Assembly (NCBI GenBank): GCA_027297485.1
Contig: JAPUHZ010000339.1
Span: forward strand, 1 to 5,125
DNA: 5,125 bases
DNA from: Deltaproteobacteria bacterium
GTDB taxonomy: Bacteria > Desulfobacterota_B > Binatia > UBA9968
Direction of reading: 5' to 3'
Below the pieces are notes generated by a model that searched no databases, was not told where the DNA came from, and worked only from the letters and a program-made list of their open reading frames with translations. Below, one piece after another: positions 1 through 5,125 of the stretch. Positions within the stretch are counted from its first letter, which is position 1. Each line of letters starts with the position of its first letter. Both the position numbers and the translations under genes were made by a program.

Positions 1-638
1 CCGGCCCAGATGAATTCGCCAATTTGGCAGGCAATCTAGGTATCAGCAACGACATGACCGTCGTCATATACGACGCACCCGCTCAGCTGATGGGAATGGT
101 TGCTTGGGCGTTCCTCTACTACGGCCACTTGGACGTGCGTATACTGGACGGCGGCCTCGCGAAGTGGTCCCACGAACACCGGCAAGTCTCGACCCAAGTA
201 GTAGACTATCCACATGCCATTTTTGTTCCCAAACCGCATGAGACGCTCTACTGCTCACTGAATCAGGCAATATCTGCTGTAGGCCAGCCGAAGACCGTCT
301 TCTGGGACACGCGCAGCTTGGAGGAATTCGAAGGGACTTCGGCCGGGTATGGAGCACCGGTTCGGCTGGGCAGGATTCCAGGCGCGGCCCATCTCGACTG
401 GAGCGAACTGTTCGACCAGGATACGAAGACGCTCAAGCCAGCAAAGGAGCTACATGTTCTCCTCGCGTCGCGGGGCATCACCGCTGACTATGAGATCGAC
501 ACTTATTGACACGGTGGTGCGCGGGCGGCGCTCGCGACGATCGTGCTCAAGATTCTCGGCTACGAAAAAGCGCAGACCTATGTTGGGTCTTACGCCCAAT
601 GGGCCAGGCAGGAAGATACGTCGGTGGAGTCTGGGTAG
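1..638 (+). CDS. Rhodanese-type sulfurtransferase with in-frame UGA (selenocysteine) at the catalytic position; 5' partial
   Basis: Tandem-rhodanese thiosulfate/3-mercaptopyruvate sulfurtransferase family; such enzymes move sulfane sulfur to a thiophilic acceptor through a persulfide on one catalytic cysteine in the C-terminal domain. The frame is open from base 3, so the gene begins left of the window; a TTG at 24 is not a convincing start because family-like sequence (PDEFANLAGNLGIS) runs through it. Residues 1-60 (numbered from base 3) are the end of the non-catalytic N-terminal domain (VVIYDA, LDGGLAKW). From about residue 97 the C-terminal domain shows FWDTRSLEEFEG, GRIPGAAHLDW, then TY-[TGA]-HGGARAA, matching the C-X4-R active-site loop, and finally GYEKAQTYVGSYAQW. 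TGA (residue 169) replaces the catalytic Cys. The 42 codons after it encode the expected rest of the domain. The only other Cys visible (residue 84) lies between the domains. I read it as a selenoprotein; a nonsense mutation or base-call error is the alternative. Confidence 0.82.
507..509 (+). other. TGA probably read as selenocysteine (active-site nucleophile)
   Basis: The TGA follows codons for D-T-Y and precedes H-G-G-A-R-A-A, so it occupies the first position of the rhodanese active-site loop (C-X4-R, usually TYC-X-X-G-X-R-A). The frame continues for 42 codons with family-specific conservation and ends at TAG 636-638. A random nonsense mutation would have to hit precisely the nucleophile codon, one step from TGC/TGT, without any frameshift or other decay. 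Recoding by SelB and tRNA-Sec is the simplest explanation; the sel genes are not in this window. Confidence 0.75.
510..545 (+). promoter_or_regulatory. Candidate bacterial SECIS stem-loop
   Basis: Directly after the TGA, CACG (510-513) can pair with CGTG (542-545). Above an asymmetric internal loop, 520-526 (CGCGGGC) pairs with 530-536 (GCGCTCGCG ends this arm), giving 7 bp with one G-U and apical loop GGC at 527-529. If the top C-G pair opens, the loop is CGGCG. The apical loop starts 16-17 nt after the UGA and has G in its first two positions. As I recall the published bacterial SECIS rules, the loop should lie about 16-37 nt from the UGA with such a G. E. coli fdhF also has CACG right after its UGA. 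The fold was done by hand, and GC-rich coding sequence gives many hairpins by chance. Confidence 0.55.
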
Positions 639-1195: not shown

Positions 1196-1378
1196 ATGGA
1201 AGGGGCAGGATTAAGACGGTTGAGAAAGCGGTTAGGGATGACCCAGGCCGAACTCGCCAAGGCCATCGGGATGCAGACAAACTCCGTAGCTCGCATGGAA
1301 CGAGATGAGAGTCCTATCCTGAAGCACACCGAGCTATCGGTCAAATATCTGTTACTCACAAGAAAGGGAGGAAAATAA
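1196..1378 (+). CDS. Small Cro/CI (XRE)-type helix-turn-helix regulator, 60 aa
   Basis: A 60-residue protein that is almost entirely one XRE-type DNA-binding domain. Residues 5-45 run GLRRLRKRLGMTQAELAKAI, then GMQTNSVARMERDE, the usual helix-turn-helix with the MTQAELA first helix and the recognition helix around NSVARME. It has no dimerisation or cleavage domain, so it resembles a minimal Cro-like regulator. The ATG at 1196 has no Shine-Dalgarno sequence and lies right after the promoter, so the message may be leaderless; no in-frame alternative start lies just upstream. The stop (1376-1378) is one base before the integrase ATG, and the integrase ribosome site lies in this gene's last codons, so the two are surely co-transcribed. 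It probably controls integrase expression and may act through the inverted repeat at 1179-1195. Confidence 0.85.
   Translation: MEGAGLRRLRKRLGMTQAELAKAIGMQTNSVARMERDESPILKHTELSVKYLLLTRKGGK
1366..1371 (+). promoter_or_regulatory. Ribosome binding site of the integrase
   Basis: GGGAGG lies 8 nt before the ATG at 1380, within the final codons of the HTH gene. It fixes the integrase start and implies translational coupling to the upstream gene. Confidence 0.8.
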
Positions 1379-1379
1379 G

Positions 1380-2501
1380 ATGGCAATAAATAAAGTTGAC
1401 TCAGGTCATTTCATGGTCGACTTCCGCGATCAGTCGAGGAAGAGACTGCAGAGGACCTTCAAGACTCACCGCGATGCGGTAGCGTTTGAGAAGACGGTCC
1501 TTGCCCAGGTTGAGAAGCGCGAATACATCAAGCCCTCTGACAAGACGGTGAGGGAGCTGGCCGATGAGTGGTACCAGAAGAAAGTCGAGAGTAAGACCAA
1601 CAACCGCCCAAGTTACCGCCGAGCCAGCCTGATCCAGTGGAGAAACCACGTGACACGATTCATCAAGCCCGAGCTGGGATCCATCAGGGTGGACGGTGTA
1701 ACGGTCAGCGCAATCGAGAAGGCAGCTTCGGCCTGGGCCGAGAACGTATCCCCAGCGACGGCCAACAAGATGCTCACCACACTCACCGCGATCTTTGCGA
1801 TGGCCAAACGCTACGACTTGAGGCGGGACAACCCGAGCCAGGATGCCGAGCGGTTGAAGGTTGCCACAGAGGAAGAGTCCACCCTCGAGATCGATGACGA
1901 TGCCGTGTACAGCCAGGGCGAGATAAGGACGTTGATCGAGTCGACCAAGCAGGGGAGCCGGGAGAGAGCGTTGGTGATGATCCTCGCACTGACGGGAGTC
2001 AGGATCGGTGAGCTGCTCGCGCTGGATTGGTCCGCGGTGGATCTCAAGGCACCCGCACTCCATGTCCGGTTGAATCTCGCCGACTCCAATGCGGGAGAGG
2101 ATCCGCTGTTCCAGCCAACCAAGACCAAGAGCAGCAAGAGGAAGATCCCGCTCCCCGAGGAGCTGGTAAAGGAACTCATGGCGTGGAAGTTAAACGGCCC
2201 GAACAGCGAGAGGCATCTGGTGTTCGCCACCAAGGAGGGCAAACCGTACCACCGCAGGGGGATGGGCAAAGTCCTTGACCGCATCATTAAGAAGGCCAAA
2301 GTGAAACGCTTGACCGCCCACGGGTTCCGCCATACGTTTGCAAGTCTACTTTTGCAGAGCAGGGTGGCGATCACCGAGGTATCGCACTTGCTAGGCCACA
2401 AAGATAGCTCGATCACACTCCGTGTCTATGCCCACTTTGTGAGAGAGGAAACTGGCGCGGTTCAGAATCTGGCAGCGAGCATATTGGGTTCAGGGGTGTA
2501 G
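1380..2501 (+). CDS. int: Tyrosine recombinase / site-specific integrase, full length, 373 aa
   Basis: Catalyses strand exchange between attP and attB through a 3'-phosphotyrosine intermediate. Three parts are visible: an N-terminal arm-binding-like segment (about residues 1-50, beginning with HFMVDFRDQSRKRLQRTFKT), a SAM-like core-binding domain (about 55-155) and the catalytic domain (about 180-365). All active-site residues can be placed: Arg208 in LTGVRIGELLALDW, Lys248 or Lys250 in the TKTKSSKRKIPL hairpin, His314 and Arg317 in HGFRHTF, His340 in LLGHKDSSIT and Tyr350 in RVYAHF. Length and organisation are normal for phage/ICE integrases, with no sign of decay. It starts at ATG 1380 behind GGGAGG and is one base after the HTH gene. 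With the tRNA 3' fragment about 390 bp upstream it is the obvious recombinase for insertion of this element. Lysine is mostly AAG, unlike the AT-rich small ORFs that follow. Confidence 0.97.
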   Translation: MAINKVDSGHFMVDFRDQSRKRLQRTFKTHRDAVAFEKTVLAQVEKREYIKPSDKTVRELADEWYQKKVESKTNNRPSYRRASLIQWRNHVTRFIKPELGSIRVDGVTVSAIEKAASAWAENVSPATANKMLTTLTAIFAMAKRYDLRRDNPSQDAERLKVATEEESTLEIDDDAVYSQGEIRTLIESTKQGSRERALVMILALTGVRIGELLALDWSAVDLKAPALHVRLNLADSNAGEDPLFQPTKTKSSKRKIPLPEELVKELMAWKLNGPNSERHLVFATKEGKPYHRRGMGKVLDRIIKKAKVKRLTAHGFRHTFASLLLQSRVAITEVSHLLGHKDSSITLRVYAHFVREETGAVQNLAASILGSGV

Positions 2502-2503
2502 CC

Positions 2504-2608
2504 ATGTTTACCACCGTTACTAAGTCTAAATGGAATATATACCATCCAGTATGCAGGGATGAATGGGAGAAGCGTGGTTTTAATGGTACACCGTTTGAGT
2601 CTGCATAG
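2504..2608 (+). CDS. Hypothetical small protein, 34 aa, coupled to the integrase
   Basis: ATG 2504 lies 2 nt after the integrase stop (2499-2501), with AGGGGT at 2492-2497 as a plausible ribosome site within the integrase end. The product begins MFTTVTKSKWNIYHPVCRDE and ends at TAG 2606-2608. It contains several aromatic residues (two Trp, one Tyr, three Phe), one Cys and mixed charge. I do not recognise a family. Tight spacing on both sides and an excellent ribosome site for the next ORF directly after its stop support a genuine operon member. Because it is so short, chance cannot be excluded; it may alternatively serve as a translated spacer between the integrase and the basic ORF. Confidence 0.5.
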   Translation: MFTTVTKSKWNIYHPVCRDEWEKRGFNGTPFESA

Positions 2609-2609
2609 A

Positions 2610-2617
2610 AAGGAGGT
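2610..2617 (+). promoter_or_regulatory. Near-perfect Shine-Dalgarno sequence for the 40-aa ORF
   Basis: AAGGAGGT at 2610-2617, 3 nt before ATG 2621, is the strongest anti-16S match seen in the window. It is the main evidence that this very small reading frame is translated. Confidence 0.75.
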
Positions 2618-2620
2618 AGC

Positions 2621-2743
2621 ATGGCAAAACAGAACGCTCGTAAGAATAAATTGAAGCGTAAACTACAGAAACGGCGCAAAAGTATTAAAGCATATTTTAA
2701 AGATAAAAAAGAAAATGATGGGCACACCCATAGTTCACACTGA
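2621..2743 (+). CDS. Small, strongly basic hypothetical protein, 40 aa
   Basis: A 40-residue protein starting MAKQNARKNKLKRKLQKRRK and ending in a His/Ser-rich tail (HTHSSH). Eleven Lys and four Arg against three acidic residues make it highly basic, and the first 27 residues could form one cationic helix. Such proteins may bind nucleic acid or ribosomes, but no family is recognised. It begins 12 nt after the previous ORF, behind a near-consensus ribosome site, and stops at TGA 2741-2743 just before an intrinsic terminator, so it closes the operon. Nine of its eleven Lys codons are AAA, whereas the integrase prefers AAG, pointing to a different origin or expression constraint. High translation is likely given the ribosome site. 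Function unknown. Confidence 0.6.
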   Translation: MAKQNARKNKLKRKLQKRRKSIKAYFKDKKENDGHTHSSH

Positions 2744-2749
2744 AACGGG

Positions 2750-2778
2750 GGGCATGGTCAGAACGATCATGCCCTTTT
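2750..2778 (+). terminator. Intrinsic terminator of the HTH-integrase operon
   Basis: GGGCATGGTC (2750-2759) pairs with GATCATGCCC (2765-2774) in a 10-bp stem with one G-U pair and loop AGAAC, followed by TTTT and then CGTTT. It starts 7 nt after the stop of the 40-aa ORF. Its 3' arm overlaps the last codons of the converging minus-strand gene (stop at 2767-2769), so on the minus strand it forms within that gene's end and has only a poor T-run. Confidence 0.8.
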
Positions 2779-3063
2779 CGTTTGATGATTTTCGAGGTAG
2801 CTCTCCACCGAGCGGCGATCAAATAAAACATACCTTCCTGGTCTCGTCGTCTTGATGTCACCAGCTCTACCTCGGTCTTCAAACCAGCGCCGTGGGATCC
2901 CGTAAAGGTTGGACAGCTCCTCGGCCTTCAACCAATCCTTCATGGGCTTAACGTCCCCGTTCGGGAGTGCCGCCTTTACTGCCTCCTGCACTATGGCGCG
3001 TAGTTCGCCAACCGATAGGGTCACCATCAATCGATCTGCGCTCTCTGTCTCTTTACCGGCCAC
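2767..3063 (-). CDS. Excisionase-like helix-turn-helix protein (HTH_17/MerR-like fold), 98 aa
   Basis: Residues 44-94 (WLKAEELSNLYGIPRRWFED, then RGRAGDIKTTRPGRYVLFDRRSVESYLEN) show the winged HTH pattern of excisionase-family and HTH_17 proteins: a helix-turn-helix, a beta-wing around GRYVLFDR, and a closing helix starting at RSVESYL. The N-terminal 43 residues contain a predicted helix (SVGELRAIVQEAVKAAL) that could mediate self-association. The start is GTG at 3063 with a weak AGGG upstream; an ATG 12 codons inside is the alternative but has no ribosome site. It begins 3 nt after the stop of the 42-aa ORF and ends inside the terminator stem of the converging operon. Position near the integrase and fold suggest a recombination directionality factor (Xis) or a regulator; which one is not determined by sequence. 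Confidence 0.8.
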   Translation of the reverse strand: MAGKETESADRLMVTLSVGELRAIVQEAVKAALPNGDVKPMKDWLKAEELSNLYGIPRRWFEDRGRAGDIKTTRPGRYVLFDRRSVESYLENHQTKRA

Positions 3064-3066
3064 AAT

Positions 3067-3195
3067 TCACGCCCTGATACAGACCCCGGGGTCGTTCTGC
3101 TCAAATTGGCCTTTTATTTGCCCTTTAAAGCCTCGATCTCTTTTCCTACAACCTGACCTATACGCCCCAAAGAACACTTTTCCCGTGTCGCTCAT
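3067..3195 (-). CDS. Possible small protein, 42 aa, coupled to the excisionase-like gene
   Basis: ATG at 3195 (minus strand) opens a 42-codon frame starting MSDTGKVFFGAYRSGCRKRD and ending at TGA 3069-3067, only 3 nt before the GTG of the excisionase-like gene. The product is basic, with two Cys and several Gly and Phe residues; no family is recognised. Support comes from spacing that would allow translational coupling and from the otherwise unusual gap between neighbours. Against it, the upstream region (GAGCGTCATTTTT) offers no good Shine-Dalgarno site. The 52 nt between it and the stop of the HTH gene upstream include a short GGATC-GATCC hairpin (3221-3233). Confidence 0.35.
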   Translation of the reverse strand: MSDTGKVFFGAYRSGCRKRDRGFKGQIKGQFEQNDPGVCIRA

Positions 3196-3247
3196 AAAAA
3201 TGACGCTCTAATTTGCCCCAGGATCAACGATCCCACCACGGGACGGC

Positions 3248-3778
3248 CTACGCCTTACCCTCCACATCCTCATCCCAGCCTTCATCGCTACGGTCAGAGA
3301 TACTCGGGCGGTCCGGGTAGTTACTCCCTCGCCGGGAGGATACACGATCCGGGGTGGCCGGCTCTGCGTTCTCATTATCCAGCTCGGCTTCTGTGATGCC
3401 GTATGCCGCGGTCAAGCGTTTGGACAGCTTGGTTGCTCGGGCTTTACCCGCAAAAAGCCTACTCATCCCCCGGAGGCGTTTGATTGCTTCAACCCTTTGC
3501 TTACGGGGTCCTGGCGGGTGCTCACATTCAAGGTCGTCTTGGCTTGGCAAATATTCGTCGATGAGCTTGCCAATCTCCTCCGCGAGGAAAACCCGCCTAT
3601 AGAAACTCCCACCGAAAAACTGGTAGCGACATTGTAGGAGCCCGTCGTGGACCCAACGAAATACCGTTCGGGTGGAGACCCTGAACAAGCCCGCGACCTC
3701 TTGCACTGTGAAATAAAGGGAAGAGCCTGGGCTGAGCCGGCTGTCGGATTGGCTTGTGGGTTGTCTTTGGGGTGGCAT
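3248..3778 (-). CDS. HTH_17/MerR-like DNA-binding protein with long charged C-terminal region, 176 aa
   Basis: Residues 21-75 form an excisionase-type winged HTH: YFTVQEVAGLFRVSTRTVFR then WVHDGLLQCR, a wing around GGSFYRRVFLAEEI and a closing helix (GKLIDEYL). Residues 90-130 are rich in Lys/Arg and probably helical (KQRVEAIKRLRGMSRLFAGK). The final 40 residues are acidic, Ser/Asp/Arg-rich and probably disordered. Plain Xis proteins are usually well under 100 residues, so the C-terminal extension is unusual. The start is ATG 3778 behind AAAGGG, 2 nt after the stop of the 138-aa ORF, indicating a coupled pair. It could be a replication-module regulator, an origin-binding accessory factor for the RepA-like ATPase, or a transcription regulator of the leftward operon. 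DNA binding is well supported; the exact role is not. Confidence 0.82.
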   Translation of the reverse strand: MPPQRQPTSQSDSRLSPGSSLYFTVQEVAGLFRVSTRTVFRWVHDGLLQCRYQFFGGSFYRRVFLAEEIGKLIDEYLPSQDDLECEHPPGPRKQRVEAIKRLRGMSRLFAGKARATKLSKRLTAAYGITEAELDNENAEPATPDRVSSRRGSNYPDRPSISDRSDEGWDEDVEGKA

Positions 3779-3780
3779 AA

Positions 3781-4197
3781 CTATTCACCCTTTCTTGGGC
3801 TCGGGCTTGGTCCTGGTTCAGCCCTGGTCTTGGTTTGGCCTTGGTCATTTGCGGTCCCCCACTGGCTCTCCCATTGCCTTAATGCGCTCAAGTGGGTTGA
3901 CACTGCGTTCCGGTCCAGGTGGAGGCCAAGGCCCTCCCAGACCTGGAGGATTAGGCTAACCTCATCCGATTCGGTTTCTGTCTCCAAGGGGGCAACCAAG
4001 GGTTTAGATGCTCTATCCTGCCCCTCTGAGCCGTTGGGCTTCGGGTCTTTGCGTCCAACCATCTCTGTACCAGGATTCTGTTGGTCGCGGACTGCTTGAA
4101 TACTCTCACCCTCTACAACTCTTACGCTGTGGTTGAGAGGTGGAGTGCAGTTGGGTGCCTGAATTGGGGTTTTAGAATGAAGATCTCTTAGCTTCAC
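3781..4197 (-). CDS. Hypothetical protein, 138 aa, first gene of a coupled pair
   Basis: No family recognised. The start is GTG at 4197 with AAGGGA about 7 nt upstream, and the stop (3783-3781) lies 2 nt before the ATG of the 176-aa HTH protein, which argues for a real co-translated pair. Residues 1-75 and 114-138 are rich in Pro, Gly, Ser, Lys and Asp and look disordered. A short segment at about 76-112 (SDEVSLILQVWEGLGLHLDR, then NAVSTHLSALRQWE) has alternating hydrophobics typical of two helices and may be the functional core. No signal peptide, transmembrane segment or catalytic motif is seen. Its place between the RepA-like ATPase and an HTH protein suggests a role in replication or its control, but that is guilt by association. 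The true start could be internal (Met46), since the N-terminal part carries little signal. Confidence 0.55.
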   Translation of the reverse strand: MKLRDLHSKTPIQAPNCTPPLNHSVRVVEGESIQAVRDQQNPGTEMVGRKDPKPNGSEGQDRASKPLVAPLETETESDEVSLILQVWEGLGLHLDRNAVSTHLSALRQWESQWGTANDQGQTKTRAEPGPSPSPRKGE

Positions 4198-4434
4198 TTG
4201 ATTTCCCTTATAGGTGCGACCGCAAAGCTACCGAAAGTTTTCCGGTATTTTCGGTTGCCGATTACGGTGCCTTGGACAAAGTAGAGGGGGATCATAAAAT
4301 GATCGAAAAGTAAGACCGCAAACCACCCCCCCTATAGGGGGTGGTTTGCGGTTTCCGATCCCTCCCCATTGTTCCTCTCTTGCCTTTCAATTTTGACCTC
4401 TACCCACTGAAAAGTCCCCGTCAATTTTCGCTGT
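4198..4434. other. 237-nt noncoding region rich in inverted and direct repeats; candidate origin or regulatory region
   Basis: No credible gene is present. It holds, left to right: GACCGCAAA at 4218-4226, repeated directly at 4314-4322 and inverted within the long hairpin; an inverted repeat ACCGAAA (4230-4236) / TTTCGGT (4249-4255); GATCAT-AAA-ATGATC at 4290-4304; a long hairpin at 4313-4354; and a direct repeat TCAATTTT at 4387 and 4421. The region separates the RepA-like ATPase gene from the 138-aa/HTH pair, so it could be a replication origin, the 3' end signal of the ATPase gene, the leader of the next genes, or a mix of these. Confidence 0.5.
4313..4354. repeat. Long perfect hairpin, 16-18 bp stem
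   Basis: ACCGCAAACCACCCCC (4315-4330) pairs perfectly with GGGGGTGGTTTGCGGT (4337-4352); a G-U and an A-T pair extend the stem to 18 bp. The loop is CCTATA. No T-run follows on the plus strand. On the minus strand the hairpin is followed by TCTTACTTTTCG, a poor but possible termination tail about 80 nt after the ATPase stop. The stem is longer than most intrinsic terminators and also resembles hairpin sites for single-strand replication initiation. Confidence 0.7.
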
Positions 4435-5125
4435 TTACGATGGGCCATAGACATATGCTGATCCCTCCTTGCCTCTGGCTAGGACCTTTAGATCAGTTAG
4501 TGCATCGAGATGGTCCCTAGCCGTTGGTTTAGAACACCCGGTCCCTTCGGCCACCTCCTTAACCTTCACCCACTTGTCTCTGCCAAGGACGAAGTTCTTG
4601 ATCTTTTCCCTGAGCTCCAAAGATGCGGTTTTTTCAGGTGGTACTCCTAGATATTCAAATTGAGTCCCCTTCTGATCTGGCGTGTCGGTAAGCCTGATGA
4701 GAAACTCAGGCTCAAAACTACCGTCCTCCGGTTCGTCCTTGAGCGCCACCCGGACACGCAGGACCCCCTTTTCCTTGGTTTTGGAGAAGAACAAAGTAGC
4801 CTCAGCAAACCCACCCAGGACCCGTGAGCCGATGATCTCGTCATGGTCATCACCTCCAGCATTGTTCTTTCGGGTATGGTGGAGAATGATAATCGTACAG
4901 TTGTACTCACGGTTTAAGTGGTCCAAAAATAGAACTATTTCGCCCATCTCCGCTGGGTCGTTAATGTTTTTGGCATGTAGGCGTGTGAAAACATCTAGGT
5001 AGACGAACTCGGGACGGAAGGAACGGATCTCCCACTCCAGCACCTCCCTCCACTGTGGATCATCGAGGCGGACCCCCTTTTTCACAGAGTAGTGAAAGAA
5101 TCCATCACTCGGCTGGATTCCCCCG
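4435..5125 (-). CDS. RepA-like RecA-fold ATPase (AAA_25-type, probable replicative helicase), C-terminal part; 5' end outside window
   Basis: The frame is open to the right edge, so the N-terminus with the Walker A motif is missing; a GTG at 5085 is internal. Numbering from the edge, residues 38-50 (PEFVYLDVFTRLH) give the Walker B strand with Asp44. Residues 75-87 (CTIIILHHTRKNN) match the sensor strand (hh-HH-x-K/R) of RepA/DnaB-like RecA ATPases. IIGSRVLGGFAEATLFF (97-113) corresponds to the GS-x-x-L-x-G-x-A-D/E-A segment of RepA-like proteins. A C-terminal winged helix at about 172-229 (REKIKNFVLGRD, WVKVKEVAEGTGCSKPTARD, LKVLARG, YVYG) could bind DNA or recognise a partner. Hexameric RepA of plasmids and AAA_25 proteins of integrative elements unwind DNA at the element's own origin. 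It transcribes toward the hairpin-rich region and the HTH genes. Helicase versus another RecA-type ATPase cannot be separated without the N-terminus. Confidence 0.85.
   Translation of the reverse strand, partial: GGIQPSDGFFHYSVKKGVRLDDPQWREVLEWEIRSFRPEFVYLDVFTRLHAKNINDPAEMGEIVLFLDHLNREYNCTIIILHHTRKNNAGGDDHDEIIGSRVLGGFAEATLFFSKTKEKGVLRVRVALKDEPEDGSFEPEFLIRLTDTPDQKGTQFEYLGVPPEKTASLELREKIKNFVLGRDKWVKVKEVAEGTGCSKPTARDHLDALTDLKVLARGKEGSAYVYGPS

Follow-up and report, generated by a model that had tools for sequence, protein, structure and literature searches.

At the start of the window, as the whole stretch of 5,125 nucleotides analysed here is called, a rhodanese (sulfurtransferase) reading frame runs into a TGA at the codon where a catalytic cysteine would be expected, and the question raised by this locus is whether that TGA is read as selenocysteine (Sec), ends the protein, or marks a damaged or misread gene. 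The comparative data favor the first of these: UGA is in all probability read as Sec in a tandem rhodanese, the machinery for which is known from the genomes of relatives.

The reading frame and its active-site TGA

ORF 3-638 on the plus strand is a tandem rhodanese, the 5′ part of which lies outside the window. An earlier note on this DNA had placed the read-through frame at 1-635; the frame does continue through the TGA, but it starts at base 3 and not at base 1. The features on which the argument draws are the following.

3..638 (+): tandem rhodanese, 5′-truncated by the window edge (ORFs, Pfam, solved structures, homologues)
252..254 (+): codon for Cys84, a possible second thiol just N-terminal of the C-terminal domain (alignments)
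507..509 (+): in-frame TGA, predicted selenocysteine codon and catalytic nucleophile (aligned DNA copies, solved structures)
507..524 (+): U-H-G-G-A-R active-site loop, UxxG motif, C-X4-R type (family alignment)
510..635 (+): 42 sense codons 3′ of the UGA, conserved as protein (pN/pS)
510..549 (+): bacterial SECIS-type hairpin region, inside the coding sequence just 3′ of the UGA (folding, comparative stem counts)
520..536 (+): predicted upper stem of 7 bp (520-526/530-536) with apical loop GGC at 527-529 (constrained fold, register test, covariation)
636..638 (+): TAG stop closing the read-through frame (ORF translation)
1380-2501: integrase, PF00589 (Pfam)

The read-through product comprises 211 aa, with Sec predicted at residue 169, and matches the Pfam Rhodanese model at 66.3 bits (cut-off 22.2) in two stretches, the better of which covers residues 88-202. 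Two rhodanese domains are thus present, the C-terminal one being catalytic and the N-terminal one cut by the window edge; in the relative L002, 280 codons are read through both domains. Among solved structures, tandem rhodaneses come closest by sequence (1uar, E 4.4e-31); in 1uar and 3aax the counterpart of residue 169 is the cysteine of the “YC” loop, which bears out the placement of the TGA at the nucleophile of a C-X4-R loop in the earlier note. Also as described there, 42 codons follow before the TAG, and they are conserved as protein: pN is 0.088 vs. a pS of 0.466 between the window and the relative L001 over the first 38 codons 3′ of the UGA. In the wider TGA group the downstream pN/pS (median 0.69, 1313 non-independent pairs) was uninformative.

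A protein search returned 363 relatives, and among the 120 listed, one of which is the window's own truncated entry (P0003, 168 aa), 51 end exactly before the UGA residue, 67 carry Cys there and 2 end elsewhere, in keeping with the prediction that a gene caller would terminate the protein at 509. At the DNA level, the nearest named relatives are L001 (Dehalococcoidia MAG, 74% identical) and L002 (Chloroflexi MAG, 65%), both of which have TGA at the same codon and TAG at the end; the window gene, too, very probably comes from a Chloroflexota bacterium of the Dehalococcoidia type. A draw of 393 genomes from the class of L001, for which the name Dehalococcoidia rests on the title of L001, gave a rhodanese match in 157 genomes at E<=1e-30, and the 150 matches listed divide into 78 with one TGA and 72 without an inside stop. 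The window, L002, all 78 TGA matches and 52 of the 72 Cys matches were aligned as 132 rows, in which the codon at the site is TGA in 80, TGC in 47 and TGT in 5. The earlier note had looked to homologs with TGA at this codon as support and to varied stop codons as grounds for doubt; the former number 80, and neither TAA nor TAG stands at the site in any of the 132 copies. Each of the 80 TGA copies has exactly one TGA in its aligned part, and a TGA 41 codons 3′ of the site in the Cys copy L111 looks like a normal stop.

The 78 TGA copies stem from 76 genomes, and hence from at least 76 of the 393 genomes drawn, so that the Sec form, which the earlier note had called rare, is common within this class. 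A draw of 301 genomes from the phylum (E<=1e-26) matched in 140, and among the matches listed a single TGA occurs only in G001 (twice), G086, G495, G032, G022 and G071, all of them except G495 already in the class draw; the same draw at E<=1e-45 matched in 1 of 301 genomes, a threshold that proved too strict. As far as these draws reach, the Sec form seems concentrated in the class of L001. No relative was found among 36 pattern matches in a search of viral contigs, and every one of 265 records from a plasmid search fell below 60% identity, with the 10 listed at ~32-35%.

These counts bear on two of the alternatives. A TGC or TGT active-site codon could have been mutated in a pseudogene or misread as TGA by sequencing error, as TGA is one base from either and an integrase-bearing element seemingly lies 3′ of the rhodanese gene. 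However, TGA recurs at one codon in 80 of 132 copies, with TGC or TGT in the rest, and across 76 class-draw genomes, and the codons downstream are conserved as protein and are accompanied by a register-specific hairpin (see below), all of which makes a pseudogene or error very unlikely for the family. Alternatively, the UGA may be a real stop, with a functional shortened protein that lacks the C-terminal catalytic tail and perhaps some selenium-dependent read-through. Any UGA-Sec gene may plausibly terminate in a selenium-dependent manner, and 51 of the 120 listed relatives are truncated, although gene callers would yield such entries either way. Against this stand the conservation of the codons 3′ of the UGA as protein and the fact that a truncated product would lack the U/C active-site loop that all 132 copies encode, and we regard a real stop as very improbable.

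The element itself invites a few remarks. The arrangement of the window suggests that a tRNA gene was the integration site of this element and that the rhodanese belongs to the flanking host DNA. A stretch resembling a tRNA 3′ end (T-arm and acceptor, by eye) is seen at 951-1000 on the minus strand, where ARAGORN found no full tRNA. Beside it, within 1196-5125, lie mobile-element-like genes: a small plus-strand ORF (1196-1378) just before the integrase, which by eye resembles an XRE-type helix-turn-helix repressor, and ORFs at 2767-3063, 3248-3778 and 4435-5124 (-). Of these, two resemble HTH_17 or excisionase proteins (below cut-off), and one encodes an AAA_25 protein (41.3 bits against a cut-off of 27) whose C-terminal end gives weak matches of the DNA-binding type. 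Small integrative elements commonly carry HTH/excisionase-like and AAA_25 genes together. A perfect 16-bp inverted repeat with a 6-nt spacer is also present at 4315-4352.

A SECIS-type hairpin and the selenocysteine machinery

In the window, the apical loop starts 17 nt 3′ of the UGA, and the segment 507-560 folds at -24.8 kcal/mol (z -2.0, with 7/200 shuffles as good), which is modest for the window alone. The rules for bacterial SECIS elements given in the available text of a recent review (PMC13188914) comprise a loop of 3-9 nt with G in the first two positions, an upper stem of 4-16 bp, a location 16-37 nt after the UGA and an MFE <= -7.5; the window, with its GGC loop, 7-bp upper stem, spacing of 17 and -22.0 kcal/mol, agrees with each. 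Energy was nonetheless dropped as evidence, as a constrained hairpin at or below -7.5 kcal/mol is found in 80/80 TGA copies but also in 36/52 Cys copies, and therefore only the register-specific test discriminates. At the fixed register, a stem of at least 5 bp is present in 71 of the 80 TGA copies vs. 1 of the 52 Cys copies, and mean stem lengths are 6.46 bp and 1.10 bp, respectively, with synonymous-codon shuffles giving 1.11 bp in both. Among the 80 TGA copies, the loop at this register is GGC 65 times and GUC 10 times, and two pairs covary, pair 12-26 being C-G in 52 and G-C in 18, and pair 15-23 being U-A in 66 and G-U in 8, figures that tally 80 related copies and not events. When all registers from 16 to 24 nt and loops of 3-6 were scanned, stems of at least 5 bp were found in 77/80 TGA vs. 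8/52 Cys copies, with ~22% of synonymous shuffles in both. Nine TGA copies have fewer than 5 bp at the fixed register; five of these (L124, L146, L153, L188, and L202) instead form 7-8 bp at a second register, the 4-nt loop of which lies 20 nt 3′ of the UGA; L095 has 5 bp at register 19, L189 and L205 have 4 bp at register 20, and in L112 no more than 3 bp are uninterrupted. Hairpins are therefore weak, interrupted or off-register in 4 of the 80 TGA copies (L095, L112, L189, and L205). A scan of the window against Rfam, with E up to 5, gave no match.

The genomes of the two nearest named relatives both carry SelB (341 and 332 bits), SelA (555 and 519 bits) and SelD (380 and 367 bits) above cut-off, compared with 2, 1 and 2 of 14 control genomes, respectively. 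ARAGORN identified the best tRNA-Sec match of each relative as tRNA-SeC with anticodon TCA and the second-best match of each as tRNA-Ser; the Rfam tRNA-Sec model is less specific, with 5/14 controls over cut-off and extra matches in the genome of L002 (G002). The SelD of both relatives has one in-frame TGA of its own (G001:C99:11065-11988 and G002:C57:9346-10269). Across the class draw of 393 genomes, 260 have SelB at E<=1e-60, 254 of them over cut-off; among the 14 controls, only E. coli and M. jannaschii do. SelB is present in 69 of the 76 genomes with a TGA rhodanese, and was not found at this threshold in the other seven (G059, G113, G198, G262, G268, G292, and G351), perhaps owing to incomplete assemblies. 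SelB alone is no predictor of the Sec form, as it also occurs in 43 of the 59 genomes whose listed rhodanese matches have no inside stop, and Fisher values for the association of SelB with TGA overstate significance because the genomes are related.

It could be argued that the whole lineage has come to decode UGA as Cys, Trp or Gly, given that the active-site UGA evidently specifies an amino acid. However, UGA elsewhere behaves as a stop: the SelB matches listed in the class draw have no inside stop, two genes of L002 with Pfam hits (GNAT and DAO) end in TGA, as apparently does the Cys copy L111, and so does the window ORF at 2767-3063, which is weakly HTH-like (HTH_17 25.6 bits, cut-off 27). 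In addition, the register-specific hairpin is as a rule confined to UGA copies (71/80 vs. 1/52), which leaves reassignment with next to no likelihood. Insertion of Sec at this codon thus remains the preferred reading, and the identification of the gene in the earlier note as a probable selenoprotein sulfurtransferase is upheld by the conserved TGA, the covarying SECIS-type hairpin and the Sec genes of relatives.

Proposed chemistry and gene neighborhood

The present data allow a model of how the enzyme may work. The hairpin at 510-549 would recruit SelB with Sec-tRNA(Sec), upon which the ribosome would insert selenocysteine at the UGA; that SelB performs this step is what we infer from the hairpin and the machinery of relatives. 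The selenolate could then take up sulfane sulfur, with thiosulfate, 3-mercaptopyruvate or a persulfide as donor, to give enzyme-Se-S-, which would pass the sulfur to a thiol or another acceptor, so that transfer would proceed by perselenide-sulfide chemistry. From 80 residues before Sec to the aligned end, 57 of the 80 Sec copies have no other Cys, and single-residue transferase chemistry is therefore favored, as it appears to fit better than a two-thiol oxidoreductase. The earlier note had stated that the C-terminal domain contains no other Cys; this is correct within the Pfam domain, yet Cys84 is found only 4 residues N-terminal of that domain, 85 residues upstream of Sec. Cys84 is invariant in the near family (25-row alignment); more widely, 51/80 Sec and 16/52 Cys copies have it. 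As it is present in only 51 of the 80 Sec copies, a resolving role for Cys84 is possible in part of the family at most.

A different view of function, compatible with the Sec reading, is that the protein acts mainly as a peroxidase or reductase, or as a carrier of selenium or sulfane sulfur, together with a thioredoxin-like partner, and not as a classical sulfurtransferase. A thioredoxin-like protein is encoded near the rhodanese in 8 of 21 loci with flanks, the conserved Cys84 could resolve a selenenyl-sulfide, and a Cys rhodanese is described, in the available text of PMC9369223, as binding selenium in a stable perselenide that may feed selenophosphate synthesis. However, the family and its active-site loop are of the sulfurtransferase type, the upstream neighbor in L001 and L002 is a gamma-glutamyltransferase, and Cys84 is absent from 29 of the 80 Sec copies; this view is accordingly a possible but rather unlikely one.

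The gamma-glutamyltransferase lies directly upstream of the rhodanese in L001 and L002, the two being ~31% identical; a search of the other loci, many of which have short flanks, did not reveal it. The link is thus only a lead, since it is confined to L001 and L002 among the loci searched. In L227 and L228, the gene for the thioredoxin-like protein immediately adjoins that of the rhodanese, and in six loci that are close kin of one another (L230, L231, L233, L234, L236, and L237 complete the eight) it is one gene further away and on the opposite strand; the neighbors in L227, L228, and L236 match Pfam Thioredoxin_10 (three of eight checked). A second protein is found within two genes of the rhodanese in the same eight loci, without a Pfam match in the two checked and, by eye, with a lipoprotein-like start in some loci.

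Known relatives, Sec/Cys switching and biological meaning

Comparison with known enzymes begins with Cys relatives. Among the matches listed, the full-length Cys tandem rhodaneses P0032, P0039, P0043, and their kin are 57-62% identical to the window copy, share its architecture and mostly have the same C-X-G-G-A-R loop, and some are named Chloroflexota or Dehalococcoidia; they differ in having Cys at the site, and the register-specific hairpin is absent from 51 of 52 Cys DNA copies. The solved enzymes 1uar and 3aax share the sequence family and active-site position, but are Cys enzymes. No NCBIfam model scored over its cut-off for P0001 or P0005. NF008557 (3-mercaptopyruvate sulfurtransferase), which comprises Cys enzymes, was considered, and P0001 is not assigned to it because it scores 85.4 bits against a cut-off of 250, the truncation of the window copy lowering the score. 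For NF041203 (rhodanese_LYCAU), P0001 is not listed and P0005 reaches 20.6 of 115 bits.

Sec rhodaneses have precedents. COG2897 is presumably the tandem family. In the available texts of two metagenomic surveys, a Sec “rhodanese-related sulfurtransferase” of COG2897 is represented by 3 sequences from the Sargasso Sea (PMC1088965, 2005), and Sec sulfurtransferases of cd01449 (8) and COG2897 (1) are listed in the GOS survey (PMC2398784, 2008). The statement in the earlier note that selenoproteome surveys had reported such proteins is thereby substantiated, while its view of a tandem form with Sec as unusual must be tempered. As far as excerpts of the respective papers show, COG2897 is labelled SseA in PMC9312934, a 2026 review describes a PF00581 “rhodanese-like form 4” with the motif UxxG (PMC13188914), to which U-H-G-G of the window conforms, and both a Sec sulfurtransferase and a rhodanese-like domain are mentioned in a paper on a deltaproteobacterial genome (PMC8318568). 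Like the COG2897/cd01449 UxxG rhodaneses of the surveys, the window gene combines an in-frame UGA predicted as Sec with a bacterial SECIS, the resemblance being judged from the descriptions in those excerpts. Other Sec rhodanese forms, on PF00581/COG0607, appear in the same surveys (PMC9312934 and PMC13188914, available parts), and NF041203, also a Sec rhodanese-related family there, is listed with a CxU motif, unlike the UxxG of the window. A term search of the texts of PMC1088965 and PMC2398784 returned no mention of Chloroflexi or SAR202, and a literature search over titles and abstract openings, from which subscription papers were largely absent, found no paper on a Sec rhodanese family in Chloroflexota. 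Sec rhodaneses of COG2897/cd01449 and the UxxG form are therefore already known, going by these excerpts, and what is apparently new within the literature searched is the scale in one Chloroflexota class, the repeated Sec/Cys switching and the second hairpin register.

Switching was followed on a quick maximum-likelihood tree of 154 rows, i.e. the 132 copies, 12 Cys database proteins and 10 truncated proteins labelled Sec by their length (P0115 among them does not end exactly at the site), with the trait column masked in the 132 rows. The tree leaves 42 of 149 inner branches open and carries a long-branch warning that includes the joining of L144 with L156. No fewer than 11 Sec/Cys changes are required on it, and starred branches force 8 of these; the count gives number and not direction. 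The window groups with L001, L002, L093 and truncated proteins, near the Cys proteins P0043/P0056 and the P0032-type clade. A 4-nt loop and 7-8-bp stem at register 20 are found in six copies, namely the five named above and L145, which has 5 bp at register 17 as well. All six belong to a single 18-row clade (support 99), the other 12 rows of which are Cys copies; in its sister Sec rows L101, L108, and L110 the hairpin is at register 17. The mean stem at register 20 is 1.75 bp in the 12 Cys rows of the clade vs. 1.73 in the other 40 Cys rows, and two of the former (L214 and L218) have 5 bp there. This distribution is suggestive of a SECIS that arose a second time, or shifted, in the register-20 clade. 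A broader proposal can be advanced tentatively, at somewhat less than even likelihood: a selenium-dependent sulfane-sulfur enzyme may be widespread in the class, with many switches between Cys and Sec and with two or more independent origins of the SECIS inside one stretch of 40 coding nt. If this is true, the register-20 hairpin would be a convergent invention of a recoding signal inside a fixed active-site motif.

For the biology of these bacteria, reconstructions of sulfur metabolism can miss a catalytically distinct enzyme, because database entries for 51 of the 120 listed relatives stop just short of the active site; two papers on rhodanese in thiosulfate use by SAR202 (Chloroflexi) contain no mention of selenium or selenocysteine in a term search of their texts. 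With 80 Sec and 52 Cys copies and at least 8 forced switches on the quick tree, the family constitutes a natural experiment on when Cys gives way to Sec in a sulfur transferase and on the evolution of a SECIS under protein constraint.
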